Under the pieces are notes generated by a model, which worked only from the letters and a program-made list of their open reading frames with translations, was not told the origin of the DNA and ran no database searches. From NCBI GenBank assembly GCA_005791535.1, contig SXWH01000253.1:1-39442 (forward strand): 39,442 bases of DNA. Direction: 5' to 3'. A program made the position numbers and the translations under genes. This document shows, piece by piece, positions 30,957-35,401 of the stretch (position 1 is its first letter; every line of letters begins with the position of its first letter). The DNA is from Verrucomicrobiaceae bacterium (GTDB lineage: Bacteria; Verrucomicrobiota; Verrucomicrobiia; Chthoniobacterales; Chthoniobacteraceae).

Positions 30957-31829
30957 ATGCATTTTATGAAACGCATCGCACTTCTCTCCATCGCCGCCTT
31001 CACCGCAAACGCCGAGCCGATCAAGGTTCTGCTCGTGGACGGGCAGAACAATCACAACTGGGCCCAGACTTCGCCGGAGATTAAGGCGATTCTCGAAGAA
31101 GGTGGTCTTTGCAAAGTGGATGTCTCGACAGCGCCTGATAACAAAGCCGGCGATGACAAATGGGCTGCCTGGCGGCCGAAGTTTGGCGATTATCAGGTCG
31201 TGGTGAGCAACTACAACGGCAAGCTCTGGCCGGACGAGGTTCGCGATGCTTTTGAAAAATATGTGGCTGACGGCGGAGGCTTCGTGCCGATTCACGCGGC
31301 GAATAACTCGTTCCCGGAATGGCTGGCTTACAACCGGATGATCGGCGTCGGCGGATGGGGCGGGCGCTCGGAAAAGAGCGGTCCTTATCTCCGCCTCCGC
31401 GACAACAAGTGGACGCTCGATACCACGCCCGGACGCGGCGGCAGCCATGGGAAGAAGCACGAGTACGTGATGAATTCGCAGAATGCGCAGCACCCCATCA
31501 TGGCCGGTCTCCCGGCAAAATGGCTGCACACGAGCGATGAGCTTTACGATCGCCTGCGCGGTCCGGCACAGGGTGTGACGGTCCTGGCGAGCGCCACGTC
31601 GACAAAGGAGTCGGGCGGCAGTGGCGAAGAGGAGCCGCTACTGATGACGATCGCATACGAGAAGGGCCGTGTATTCCATACGGCCCTCGGCCACGATCTC
31701 GTCTCGGTGAAATGTGTGGGCTTTGCCACGACGCTGCGCCGCGGAACCGAATGGGCTGCGACAGGGAAGGTGACAACGCCGGTGCCCGCGGAGTTTCCGA
31801 CGGAGACTGCGATCAAGGCGCGGCCGTAG
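30957..31829 (+). CDS. Secreted ThuA-like domain protein
   Basis: A 290-residue exported protein (signal peptide MHFMKRIALLSIAAFTANA). The mature part matches the ThuA-like fold seen in planctomycete and verrucomicrobial sugar-related proteins. It has VLLVDGQNNHNWAQTSPEI, YQVVVSNYNGKLWPDEVR, KYVADGGGFVPIHAANNSF, HPIMAGLPAKWLHTSDELYD and GRVFHTALGHD. The class I glutamine amidotransferase-like fold is expected, but its Cys-His catalytic pair is not evident. A ribosome site (AGAGGGA) lies 4 bases before the ATG at 30957; another ATG at 30966 is less well placed. It is 41 bp downstream of the giant lamin-tail gene and probably in its operon. Confidence 0.9.
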   Translation: MHFMKRIALLSIAAFTANAEPIKVLLVDGQNNHNWAQTSPEIKAILEEGGLCKVDVSTAPDNKAGDDKWAAWRPKFGDYQVVVSNYNGKLWPDEVRDAFEKYVADGGGFVPIHAANNSFPEWLAYNRMIGVGGWGGRSEKSGPYLRLRDNKWTLDTTPGRGGSHGKKHEYVMNSQNAQHPIMAGLPAKWLHTSDELYDRLRGPAQGVTVLASATSTKESGGSGEEEPLLMTIAYEKGRVFHTALGHDLVSVKCVGFATTLRRGTEWAATGKVTTPVPAEFPTETAIKARP

Positions 31830-31834
31830 CCTAG

Positions 31835-32899
31835 CTACTTTTGATTTCCGAGCTGGAGGCCGGCCTGTTCGCCTGTGTTGAGAAGATCCTCGCCGGTAGA
31901 TGGTGTCGCGCCTGTTCCGGTCGGGCTTTCTCCGGGGGTGATTTTTAACGTGAGCCGCTTTCCGGCGCGAGAGACGAGGACGTCGAGCGGTTCCTCGGGC
32001 TGCACGTAGAATGATGCATTCAGCACGTCTTCGGGCGCGGTGATTTTCCATTCGCCGACCTGAATAAGGACGTCGCCCGGGCGCAGACCGCCGCCGTAGC
32101 CGGGGCCATTGAGCCGGAGGTTTCGCACGCGGATACTGCTTCCGTGTTCCGGCGCATCGGTGAGCCGCACGTCGGCTCCAAGCCAGCCCTGGCGGATTCG
32201 GCCGTGGGCGAGAAAATCGTGGTAAACCTTGTCCACCGCCTCGCCGGGCAGTGCGAACAGTCCGGCACCGTTTTCCAAAGTGCTGATGATGACGCCGGCG
32301 ACCTCGCCTCGTGCATTCATGAGCGGTGCGCCACCCTGTCCGCGCTGGACGGGTGCGGTTGCGCGGATGTGGCGCGCTGCGAAGAAGCGCCCGCCGTGTC
32401 CCATATCGAATCCGGACACCACGCCGAAACTCGGCGAGAGCGGAAACTCAAGCGGATAGCCGATTGCGATAACCATCGCGCCGATTCCGAGACGGTTCGC
32501 TTTTCCGAGCCGTAGGAACGATGTGGGTTTGTCGGTGTCCGCTTTGAGAATGGCGATGCCGCTGCGGCGGTCGGCCATGAGGCGCTTAAGCGGCACGCGG
32601 TCATCTCCTATGATAGCGAAGATTTCTTCGGATTCGCCGAGCACTGCGTAGCTGGTAATCAGAACGCCGTTTGGCTCGATGAAGAATCCGGTTCCCGCCA
32701 TGGCGCCGCCGTCGTCCTCTGCTTCAATTCGCACGATCGCGTCGCGCGAACGGGCGAAGATCCCCTGGATTTCGTTCGAGACCGACTCGAGAACCGACTG
32801 CGTTTCGAGCGGCGCTTTTGCAGGCTCTGCGGCAAGGCATTGCAGAGCAAAAGCCGCGAGCGCGGACGAAATGCTAGAAGCGGATCTGAGTAGCCTCAT
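31835..32899 (-). CDS. HtrA/DegP-like pseudoprotease with PDZ domain
   Basis: A 354-residue exported protein. After a signal peptide (about 1-24) comes a trypsin-like domain (about 45-225) and one PDZ domain (about 235-320, YGGGLRPGDVLIQVGEW). Alignment by eye with DegP shows that all three catalytic residues are replaced. The His position is Ala85 in GVLITSYAVL, the Asp position is Gly114 in RRSGIAIL, and the Ser position is Gly189 in RGQGGAPL. The fold motifs around them are kept (IAIGYPLEFPLSPSFGVVSG, APVQRGQ), so it is likely a folded but inactive binding protein. The start at 32899 overlaps the upstream membrane-protein gene by 26 bp. It is third in an operon after the ECF sigma factor (33377-34093) and a probable anti-sigma factor, like an RpoE-type envelope stress circuit. 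A role as a stress sensor is inferred. Confidence 0.88.
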   Translation of the reverse strand: MRLLRSASSISSALAAFALQCLAAEPAKAPLETQSVLESVSNEIQGIFARSRDAIVRIEAEDDGGAMAGTGFFIEPNGVLITSYAVLGESEEIFAIIGDDRVPLKRLMADRRSGIAILKADTDKPTSFLRLGKANRLGIGAMVIAIGYPLEFPLSPSFGVVSGFDMGHGGRFFAARHIRATAPVQRGQGGAPLMNARGEVAGVIISTLENGAGLFALPGEAVDKVYHDFLAHGRIRQGWLGADVRLTDAPEHGSSIRVRNLRLNGPGYGGGLRPGDVLIQVGEWKITAPEDVLNASFYVQPEEPLDVLVSRAGKRLTLKITPGESPTGTGATPSTGEDLLNTGEQAGLQLGNQK

Positions 32900-33371
32900 A
32901 GCTCGCGGGTAGTCCGCCGCCGACGAATTGCGGTGCGGGCTGCGTGCCGGACCGCGCGGGCACAACGACGCGCTGGAGTGGAGGCAGGAGTTTCTGGTCC
33001 TGCACATTGAGGGTCAGCACGGGTTGCGGCGGTGTCGAATGCGCGGCGACCGGCTGGGCATTGAGCGCCGGATTTGAAGTCGCGATGGCCGAAGGCCGCT
33101 GCTTGGGCATCGCAATCTGGATGATGCCGACGCCGGTCAGAAGGATGCCCGCCATGGTGCCGGCGTAGCGCCAGTCCACACGCATGGATTGGAAAAAGGT
33201 TTTCACGCGCTCGACGGCGATGCGCCAGGCTGGACGACGCAGCATCTCCTCGCGCTGCCGTTCATGGATGCCGGCGAGGAGGTCGTTGAAGTAACCCGGA
33301 GGCGGCTGTTCGTACCGCTTGAGCCGGAGCAAGGCTTGGAGTTGTTTCTCGTTGAGTTGCTTGTCTGCCAT
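32874..33371 (-). CDS. Single-pass membrane protein, probable anti-sigma factor
   Basis: A 165-residue protein with an N-terminal cytoplasmic part (1-68) that is helical and starts MADKQLNEKQLQALLRLKRYEQPPPGYF. One membrane helix (about 69-88, YAGTMAGILLTGVGIIQIAM) follows, then a Pro/Gln-rich exported tail (90-165). No HxxxCxxC zinc anti-sigma motif is seen. It is encoded 5 bp after the ECF sigma gene and overlaps the HtrA-like gene by 26 bp. The position and topology match RseA-type regulators: the cytoplasmic part would hold the sigma factor and the external tail would meet the HtrA-like protein. This role is an inference from context. Confidence 0.75.
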   Translation of the reverse strand: MADKQLNEKQLQALLRLKRYEQPPPGYFNDLLAGIHERQREEMLRRPAWRIAVERVKTFFQSMRVDWRYAGTMAGILLTGVGIIQIAMPKQRPSAIATSNPALNAQPVAAHSTPPQPVLTLNVQDQKLLPPLQRVVVPARSGTQPAPQFVGGGLPASYEATQIRF

Positions 33372-33376
33372 GGTCT

Positions 33377-34093
33377 TCAGGGTGTCGGGTTGGGAGCGAA
33401 TTCGCCCAGCCAGCCTTGGAGTTGTTTGTGGGCGTAGAAAAGACGCGAGCGCACGGTACCTTCGCTGATTTTCAGTATCTCCGCGATTTCACCGTGGGAC
33501 ATTCCCTGAATGTCGAACATCGTCACGACCGCGCGGTGCTCGGGGGTGAGTTTCATCATGGCCTCGTTGATCTTGCGCTGCATTTCGGAGAGGTCTGCAT
33601 CGCGCACCGGCGTGCTTTGCGTGGTGAGTTCGGCGAATTCCTTGTCGTTGGAAATTCCGTTGTCCACATCGTCGAGGCTCATCGTCCAGCGGCGCCCGCG
33701 CTTCTGAACAAAATTGATGGCAGTGTTCGCGGCGATGCTGTGGAGCCATGTGGAAAACGCCGATTTGCCCCGGAACCCTTTGATGTTGCGGTAGACCTTC
33801 ATCCACACGTCCTGCAGCATGTCATTCGCGTCGTCGTGGTTCGACGTCATGTGGTACATCTGCGCGTAGAGCTTCGGGCTGTGTTTGACGACGAGCGAAT
33901 CGAACGCTGCGGAATCTCCCGCCTGGGCCCGGGCGACCAGCGCCTCGTCCTCGCGGCGGCTGGCCTCCTTTTCTGCAGCGACAGGGTCGATCTCTCCGGC
34001 GGCCATTCCGGCGGAGAAAGCGGGCGCTGAGGCTGGAAAAATGTTATGCAAGCTGGGGAAGAGTGTAGTCGAGTTCGGTAAAACGGCAGCCAT
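33377..34093 (-). CDS. RpoE-like ECF sigma factor
   Basis: An ECF sigma factor of about 238 residues. The region 2 segment has ALVARAQAGDSAAFDSLVV, SNHDDANDMLQDVWMKVYRNI and AFSTWLHSIAANTAINFVQKR. Region 4 has KLTPEHRAVVTMFDIQGMSHGEIAEILKISEGTVRSRLFYAHKQL. Together these form the classic group IV pattern. It differs in type from the two (T)RWSLV/THWSMV sigma factors elsewhere in the window. The start is uncertain: GTG 34099, ATG 34093 or ATG 34006 (MAAGEIDPV); only the last 210 residues are clearly homologous. It is first in the operon with the membrane and pseudo-HtrA genes. A possible self-recognised promoter is at 34166-34189. Confidence 0.93.
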   Translation of the reverse strand: MAAVLPNSTTLFPSLHNIFPASAPAFSAGMAAGEIDPVAAEKEASRREDEALVARAQAGDSAAFDSLVVKHSPKLYAQMYHMTSNHDDANDMLQDVWMKVYRNIKGFRGKSAFSTWLHSIAANTAINFVQKRGRRWTMSLDDVDNGISNDKEFAELTTQSTPVRDADLSEMQRKINEAMMKLTPEHRAVVTMFDIQGMSHGEIAEILKISEGTVRSRLFYAHKQLQGWLGEFAPNPTP

Positions 34094-34165
34094 TTTCACA
34101 ATGTTTCCGAAGTTCGAAAATCGAGGATTTCAGGGTGCGGCTGGCGCTTCATCGTATCCCTATGA

Positions 34166-34189
34166 GACAGGCACATCGGGAAAACGTTC
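34166..34189 (-). promoter_or_regulatory. Possible ECF-type promoter upstream of the sigma operon
   Basis: On the minus strand GAAC (34186-34189) and GTC (34166-34168) are separated by 17 bases, the general AAC/CGTC spacing of ECF promoters. It lies about 70 bases before the sigma gene start. If real, it suggests autoregulation. The match is short and could be chance. Confidence 0.25.
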
Positions 34190-34256
34190 AAAGAATTTGA
34201 CCGTTCGTGCGGGAGCCGCGGTGTTTGTGTGTCGAATTGGGAACGGTCCAAGCTAC

Positions 34257-34267: not shown

Positions 34268-35401
34268 ATGGCTGCGCGAGCGATTCAATTTATTGATAAC
34301 GACAGTGTTCGAACGAACCGGCTCTTTGACGGCATTCCTTCAGAGTTGCTGACGAATGTAAGTCAGGGGTTGCAGTTTTTCTCCTATCGCTCGAACGAGA
34401 TTATTTTCCGCGATGGCGACCCTGGTGATTGCCTGTTTCTGGTCTGTGAAGGGAGCGTTCGGATTTCGAAAACCGGTCGCGGCGGCAATCAGGAGACACT
34501 GGGATTTATCCAGAAGGGCGATTTCTTCGGCGAAATGGCGCTCGTGGACGGACAGCCGCGGAGCGCACAAGCCTGTGCGAGCGAAGATTCGGTGATTTGT
34601 CGTTTGGACCAGGCCGCATTTGACCGCATCCTCGCTCTCGCGCCCGGGCACGCCCACATGAACTTTCTCCGTTCGGTCGTCGCGCGATTGCGGAGCGTAA
34701 ACAGTCAGTTTGTTTCCGAACTCATGCGCAACGAGCGCATTAACACGCTCGGGACCATGGCGAATTCGATCATTCACGACCTGAAAAGCCCGATTACGGT
34801 AGTTCGTTCGTGCTGTGAGTTACTCGCGAACCGGTTTCAAGAGCCGACGGTGGTCGACCTCTGCCGGCTTATGAACAAATCGGTGGACGGGATGCTGGAT
34901 ATGATTCAAGAGCTGCTCGATTTCACGCGTGGCCAGAGCAGCGTCCAGCTTGTCCGAAGGCCGGCGAACGAGGTTCTCGACGAGCTCAAATCGACGCTTC
35001 CCCGCCTGCTGCCGACGTCGATTCACCTCATTCTGGAGGATGGGTGTACCGATGAGATTCTCATCGACGTGGGCCGCTTTGGACGCGTGATCCTGAACCT
35101 CGTGAAAAATGCCGTTGAGGCCATGAAGAATGGCGGAATCATCTGGGTCGGCGTGCGACGCGAGGGCGAGCACGTGATTTTCAAAGTTGGCGATACCGGC
35201 TGCGGTATCCCGGCGGCGTTGCAGGCGCGGATTTTTGAGCCGTTCATCACACACGGCAAATCGAGCGGCACCGGCCTCGGGCTGGCGATCGTGAAGAGCG
35301 TGGTCGATTCGCACAACGGAACGATTTCCCTGCACAGCAAGGAAGGAATCGGAACCACGTTCGAGATTTCTCTCCCGGTTGCAAAGGCCCTGACTTCCTA
35401 G
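34268..35401 (+). CDS. Cyclic-nucleotide-binding-domain histidine kinase
   Basis: A 377-residue soluble protein. A CRP-like cNMP-binding fold is at about 15-140 ([34 protein letters not shown]), with FGEMAL and the PRSA cassette in the phosphate-binding position. It is followed by HisKA with His170 in [13 protein letters not shown]. The ATPase domain has N-box [10 protein letters not shown]1 DTGCGIP and G2 GTGLGL, and is intact. There is no membrane segment and no helix-turn-helix, so a soluble cAMP- or redox-type signal may control the kinase directly. No response regulator is adjacent, so its partner is elsewhere. Its stop shares a CTAG with the convergent DUF1501 stop, a 4-bp overlap. Confidence 0.93.

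Follow-up and report, generated by a model that had tools for sequence, protein, structure and literature searches.

A conserved HtrA-like pseudoprotease encoded with an extracytoplasmic function sigma factor and a candidate anti-sigma factor in Verrucomicrobiota

The DNA analysed here, called the window, is the whole 39,442 nucleotide (nt) contig SXWH01000253.1 (our contig C240) of a draft Verrucomicrobiaceae genome that is 86.6% complete. At 31835-34093 it carries an operon of three genes, all on the minus strand, encoding in this order an extracytoplasmic function (ECF) sigma factor, a single-pass protein taken to be its anti-sigma factor and an HtrA-like protein. Judged from its sequence and those of its relatives, the HtrA-like protein is almost certainly a conserved pseudoprotease under purifying selection, and its PDZ domain is likely to bind the C-terminal tail of the anti-sigma factor. 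The original prediction for this DNA, made from the letters alone, had named the same kinds of product for the three genes; Pfam matches support this for the sigma factor and the HtrA-like protein. It also had the genes tied by overlap; this applies to the anti-sigma and htrA-like genes, which share 26 nt (32874-32899), and not to the sigma and anti-sigma genes, which lie 5 nt apart. For the sigma gene the ATG at 34093 is the preferred start, because the start context is common to loci L009 and L010. The window locus falls into family code f1, which includes Chthoniobacter: locus L031 (genome G024) has 100% identity over 368 residues to a Chthoniobacter flavus Ellin428 protein (record NZ_ABVL01000006.1).

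The catalytic positions of the HtrA-like protein were placed by phmmer against HtrA proteins in the PDB and by a MAFFT alignment with the active HtrA proteins of the same genome. Both put Ala85, Gly114 and Gly189 at the His, Asp and Ser positions, as originally proposed, and no triad was seen elsewhere in the protein. The AlphaFold model (predicted local distance difference test, pLDDT, 87.4) was matched by Foldseek to DegQ, DegP, MucD, AlgW and DegS, so that alignments and fold together rule out a displaced triad or a misalignment. Of the features that define S1C/HtrA proteins, the trypsin-like fold followed by a PDZ domain is present and the His-Asp-Ser triad is absent; with the triad lost, proteolysis by this protein is not expected. 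The cut-offs of the named families were missed, with 116.9 bits against 416.2 for DegP/HtrA Do (TIGR02037), 72.3 against 422.95 for DegS (TIGR02038) and 27.4 against 800 for MamO (NF040961). PDZ_2 exceeds the Pfam cut-off in all six relatives scanned, and the GWLG stretch of the window PDZ domain is presumably the carboxylate-binding loop.

A close relative of the dead HtrA occurs in 44 of 57 genomes of an order-level sample, and a match at E <= 1.8e-56 in 131 of 286 genomes of the class (both counted by hand). We collected 157 members, consisting of the window, 43 order-level loci, 60 class matches, 7 of 16 further loci, 42 new loci among 62 named records and 4 strongly decayed ones among 35 loci chosen by their sigma gene. 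The sigma gene lies within the same stretch for 151 of the 157 members, which span at least 38 family codes. Among the loci fetched, L057 and L084 have no anti-sigma gene in their stretch, L163 and L189 have neither an anti-sigma nor a sigma match, the anti-sigma gene of L228 is cut by a contig end and in L229 only htrA was seen. An active protease in this gene order was looked for and found in none of the 157 members. The triad Asp is kept in none of them, His in one (L172, which reads HGE) and Ser in 10, and two triad residues never occur together. By comparison, all nine HtrA proteins fetched from outside the operon retain a triad (HDS or HES, in the order His, Asp or Glu, Ser), and the genome of the window encodes four homologues with HDS and a fifth with H and D before the contig ends; its weak matches L007 and L008 were left out of this reading. 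In a tree that joins the 111 dead proteins sampled with 13 active homologues, the former lie on one side of a single branch (Shimodaira-Hasegawa-like approximate likelihood ratio test, SH-aLRT, 96). Gly114 is invariant in the first set (44/44), and across 15 pairs, some with saturated dS, the protease domain has a ratio of nonsynonymous to synonymous substitution rates (dN/dS) of 0.02-0.26. Taken together, these three results indicate that catalysis was probably lost once and that the protein has been retained from then on. The member L112 belongs to a genome outside the class, and genome G284 has two copies on two contigs. In genome G044, where the anti-sigma and dead htrA genes are on one contig and the sigma gene on another (L199/L200), the operon seems to be split.

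The middle gene product has no match in Pfam or NCBIfam, and neither zf-HC2 nor its HxxxCxxC motif is present. The motif was found in 8 of 95 relatives, and zf-HC2 exceeds the Pfam cut-off in all three of these that were scanned, from family codes f14 and f18. Because this zinc domain is found in relatives, we regard the window protein as an anti-sigma factor that lacks the zinc site; the lack of a zinc motif noted originally is thus correct for the window protein, while relatives in two other family codes do carry it. Of 95 anti-sigma factors, 93 have a predicted transmembrane segment (hydropathy >= 1.4), and the charge on its two sides, the N-side being more positive in 62, fits a periplasmic C-terminus moderately well. 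A second anti-sigma-like gene (L201) was seen in genome G030 of genus code g5, beside frames that by eye resemble an XRE regulator and a metalloprotease.

The last residue is Phe or Tyr in 154 of the 155 anti-sigma factors accompanied by a dead HtrA, with 102/102 in L001 and L009-L111 (91 Phe, 11 Tyr) and 6/7, 40/40 and 6/6 in the other sets. The typical order-level C-terminus, RYVxDxRPVSYExxxSF, is strongly conserved, and position -2 is F, I, L, V, Y, M, W or A in 79 of 95 proteins, a count in which L108 was misread; its gene crosses a stretch of N, and we read the tail by eye from another frame. The final Phe is encoded by TTC in 52 and by TTT in 33 of the 95. As a background, 520 other long six-frame open reading frames of these loci, not all of them genes, end in Phe in 3.1% and in Tyr in 1.3% of cases. 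Among the other operon proteins of the same loci, such an end was seen in 1 of 100 sigma factors and in none of 104 HtrA proteins. In most overlapping loci the ATG of htrA lies within the SYE codons of the tail. That the tail is conserved merely as a by-product of this overlap is ruled out by ten loci which retain the Phe/Tyr end without overlap (L034, L037, L038, L089, L093, L094, L098, L105, L109 and L111) and by an unlinked case, genome G180, in which the dead htrA gene (L057) is on a separate contig and the anti-sigma factor beside the sigma gene (L226) still ends in TYVAF. According to passages of PMC8545111, the PDZ pockets of AlgW and DegS take large aromatic residues at positions 0 and -2 (WVF, YQF), and the hydrophobic-x-Phe end usually found here resembles such ligands. 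Hence the tail is a likely ligand for the PDZ domain of the dead HtrA.

Where sigma and anti-sigma genes occur without an adjacent dead HtrA, a Phe/Tyr end is found in only 5 of 35 loci. In genus code g5, the two genes adjoin without a dead HtrA in 7 of 8 sampled genomes, and none of the eight tails (one from the second copy in G030) has such an end, while the upstream part of the motif persists in several. The remaining loci of this kind have it in 5 of 27, three from g27, one from f35 and one from f41. In family code f15, the HtrA of L206-L209 is far more decayed, with Trypsin_2 unmatched or under the Pfam cut-off and PDZ_2 over it in the three scanned, yet all four anti-sigma factors end in Phe. 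The fifth f15 locus, L205, has neither a dead HtrA nor a Phe/Tyr end. On a tree of the sigma factors (146 loci; L063 left out), at least five gains or losses were seen, and in the only five independent pairs the tail went along with the gene in 3.7 on average and never in the opposite direction. The idea of a sensor acting through binding instead of cleavage, raised in the original prediction, is therefore supported independently, because the Phe/Tyr end of the tail is conserved, is usually absent where no dead HtrA adjoins and, together with the PDZ domain, outlives the protease domain in one lineage; the binding of PDZ and tail itself we infer.

The window sigma factor passes the ECF profile TIGR02937 (105.9 bits, cut-off 42.9) and misses the RpoE equivalog TIGR02939 (129.9 bits, cut-off 236.15); its group may already have a place in the existing ECF classification. 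A sigma match at E <= 1e-55 is present in 247 of the 286 class genomes and thus commoner than the dead HtrA with 131, at differing thresholds. Therefore, the dead HtrA looks like a modulator and not like an essential protease.

A gapped-dyad count found GAAC-N16-TGTC as candidate promoter, while the guesses GGAAC and GAACTT occurred at or near chance frequency and were discarded. TGAAC-N15..17-TGTC precedes the sigma gene in 33 of 208 loci and appears in 1 of 208 control stretches; these loci include the repeats, among them 20 of the 62 named-record loci. All 10 loci from the genus of the window have the site, as do 6 of 7 from g5. The genome of the window holds 24 promoter-like sites at <=1 mismatch, compared to 4 in a backward control, and most of this list cannot be interpreted; of the two perfect sites in it, one precedes a PurK-like frame and is probably there by chance. 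One of the 24 near-matches precedes skp (OmpH, 7.5e-23), which in the classical system is a sigmaE target. We found skp in 37 of 38 genomes searched and fetched 30 as loci. TGAAC-N15..17-[TG]GTC lies upstream of 14 of these, that of the window's genome among them, in each case with a copy 42-86 nt from the start; shuffled sequences gave 0.085 on average and 2 at most, and the reverse strand gave 1. This lends fair support to a regulon related to outer-membrane proteins (OMPs), in which the sigma factor may read the skp site, and some support to the analogy with the RpoE circuit that had been drawn originally. A one-mismatch site (TTTGAAC-N16-TGTCG; L253, contig C181 of the same genome) is shortly followed by an M16 peptidase frame, a possible regulon member.

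Considering these data, the chances seem to us evenly balanced that the operon encodes a sigma-E-like circuit for OMP stress, in which a DegS-like sensor has turned pseudoprotease and holds the anti-sigma tail by its PDZ domain. The sigma factor would be held by the single-pass anti-sigma factor, whose periplasmic hydrophobic-x-Phe end would mimic the tail of an OMP. The secreted dead HtrA would grip this end and thereby shield the anti-sigma factor. As unfolded OMPs pile up, their Phe-terminal tails could compete for the PDZ domain, and the freed anti-sigma factor might then be destroyed by an active periplasmic protease encoded elsewhere and an RseP-like protease, both of putative identity. 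The released sigma factor would activate its own operon as well as skp, which encodes an OMP chaperone. Contig C193 ends in a candidate for the RseP-like protease (103.7 bits, under the family cut-off and truncated by the contig end). We put forward this scheme of shielding and competition tentatively, our confidence in the whole of it falling a little short of even. With similar reserve, we suggest that, either before the class arose or early in its history, the sensor lost catalysis for good and the anti-sigma factor gained an OMP-mimicking Phe tail that plugs the PDZ groove, so that OMPs would be read by competition for the groove and not by allosteric activation of a protease. This suggestion draws on the lineages without the receptor, which mostly lack the tail end, and on the one lineage in which the receptor is nearly reduced to its PDZ domain.

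Several observations weigh against this reading. The anti-sigma factor of L115 ends in Met in the presence of a dead HtrA, and L222, L223 and L225 of g27 as well as L202 and L213 have Phe/Tyr ends without an adjacent one. In g5, one event, the deletion of htrA, could by itself have cut off the end of the tail that it overlaps, and the independent-pair test is underpowered, its median p of 0.125 being suggestive and not significant. The N-terminal side of the transmembrane segment is more positive than the C-terminal side, as the topology requires, in only 62 of 95 anti-sigma factors. PDZ_2 stays under the Pfam cut-off in the window protein, and an AlphaFold model in which tail and HtrA were joined as a read-through fusion (145-row alignment) left the tail undocked with pLDDT <50, a weak test as the fusion has no free carboxylate. 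Regarding the regulon, 16 of the 30 skp loci lack the site, and it could be read by another ECF sigma factor. Because 13 of the 14 skp sites carry GGTC where the operon has TGTC, we slightly lowered our estimate that the circuit serves OMP or envelope stress, which we now regard as reasonably probable.

By analogy with the magnetosome proteins MamO and MamE, the dead HtrA might instead be a regulatory subunit: in mixed oligomers with an active HtrA, it would either hand the tail over to the active partner or switch this partner on. The four homologues with intact HDS in the same genome would provide partners, the tail could recruit the substrate, and passages of PMC4794232 report that MamO, itself a dead HtrA, activates MamE-dependent proteolysis. 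Against this, a second HtrA gene was not noticed beside the operons, for which no systematic search was made, and a conserved oligomer interface is disfavoured by how far the protease domain has decayed in L206-L209. We regard such a subunit as unlikely. It is quite improbable that the Phe tail marks the anti-sigma factor for an active site-1 or tail-specific protease encoded elsewhere, with the dead HtrA acting as an independent periplasmic chaperone expressed from the same promoter. In its favour, the Phe end persists in g27 where no dead HtrA adjoins, and in G120, the one g27 genome checked, the sole HtrA match at E<=1e-20 (L119) has HDS; here an active HtrA may also have taken over. However, 30 of the 35 tails without an adjacent dead HtrA end in neither Phe nor Tyr, although the genomes have HtrA-type matches (triads mostly unread), and a tag should have stayed. 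That we are dealing with the product of a decaying pseudogene or a misaligned active protease, as the loss of all three catalytic positions might suggest, has a negligible chance, since purifying selection as measured by dN/dS rules out a pseudogene and the class-wide spread, the position on one side of a branch, invariant residues at the dead site such as Gly114 and the confirmed alignment and fold contradict both, unless catalysis proceeds by an unexpected mechanism. We favour a dead HtrA that holds the anti-sigma tail by its PDZ domain.

The features of the operon are listed in Table 1. Next to it, a divergent gene at 34268-35401 on the plus strand encodes cyclic-nucleotide-binding, HisKA and HATPase domains; its start adjoins the sigma promoter, and a common intergenic control region is possible. 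On the other side, a convergent gene for a ThuA-domain protein (30963-31829, plus strand, Pfam 1.8e-30) has its stop 5 nt from that of htrA.

Table 1. Positions of the operon features in the window.
Feature	Position	Strand	Basis
ECF sigma factor, regions 2 and 4	33377..34093	-	Pfam Sigma70_r2 1.6e-17, Sigma70_r4_2 2.7e-14
Predicted ECF promoter TTTGAAC-N16-TGTCT, 71 nt before sigma ATG	34165..34192	-	exact match
Single-pass anti-sigma factor (assigned), 165 amino acids	32874..33371	-	position, conservation; zf-HC2 in relatives L075, L080, L228
Predicted transmembrane segment of anti-sigma factor, about residues 70-88	33108..33164	-	19-residue hydropathy 1.71; more positive on the N-side
Conserved tail of the anti-sigma factor, GGGLPASYEATQIRF-COOH, ending in I-x-F; putative ligand of the PDZ domain	32877..32921	-	conservation
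HtrA-like pseudoprotease, 354 amino acids, putative signal sequence (by eye)	31835..32899	-	Pfam, alignment, fold
Trypsin-like domain, catalytically dead, residues 69-203	32291..32695	-	Pfam Trypsin_2 1.5e-15
Ala85 codon, catalytic His position	32645..32647	-	phmmer against PDB HtrAs, MAFFT
Gly114 codon, catalytic Asp position	32558..32560	-	alignments; Gly in 44/44 of first set
Gly189 codon, catalytic Ser position	32333..32335	-	alignments
PDZ domain, residues about 240-320, GWLG stretch at its start	31940..32182	-	PDZ_2 1.7e-4 (below cut-off), fold

Most of what is known about envelope-stress sensing comes from proteobacteria, in which the anti-sigma factor is cleaved by an active HtrA; passages of PMC8545111 give AlgW and DegS as examples. 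In DegS, the PDZ domain recognises Phe-ended OMP tails and thereby turns proteolysis on. The sigmaE-RseA-RseB-DegS system of E. coli and the AlgU-MucA-MucB-AlgW system of P. aeruginosa share with the operon an ECF sigma factor, a single-pass anti-sigma factor and a periplasmic HtrA fold with one PDZ domain. Here, in contrast, the HtrA is dead and encoded inside the sigma operon, and the Phe-ending tail is on the anti-sigma factor itself. The window anti-sigma factor has no RseA-type Pfam match, and the three operon proteins have none of RseB/MucB type (E up to 1). Class I zinc anti-sigma factors are related through the f14 and f18 proteins with zf-HC2, whereas the window protein and most relatives lack the motif and have a Phe/Tyr-ending tail. 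The closest precedent for the dead enzyme is MamO, which, as described in the same passages of PMC4794232, also combines an HtrA fold and a degenerate active site with a non-catalytic role; it keeps a His and an Asp at the triad positions, has Thr at the Ser position, binds metal and acts in biomineralisation. In the operon family, Asp is lost in all 157 members and the partner genes encode the sigma and anti-sigma factors.

The listings of an open-access library, which leaves subscription papers aside, showed neither a previous account of this kind of circuit in Verrucomicrobia nor one of a pseudoprotease acting as receptor in an ECF sigma system. What appears to be new is the Phe/Tyr end of the anti-sigma factor, which goes with a dead HtrA and is usually absent where none adjoins. 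Compared to the proteobacterial systems, a large share of another class (the 131 of 286 genomes) retains sigma-E-like parts with a dead enzyme under selection. This would amount to a natural separation of PDZ-sensing from cutting in HtrA proteins, for which the C-terminus of the anti-sigma factor offers a directly testable ligand.

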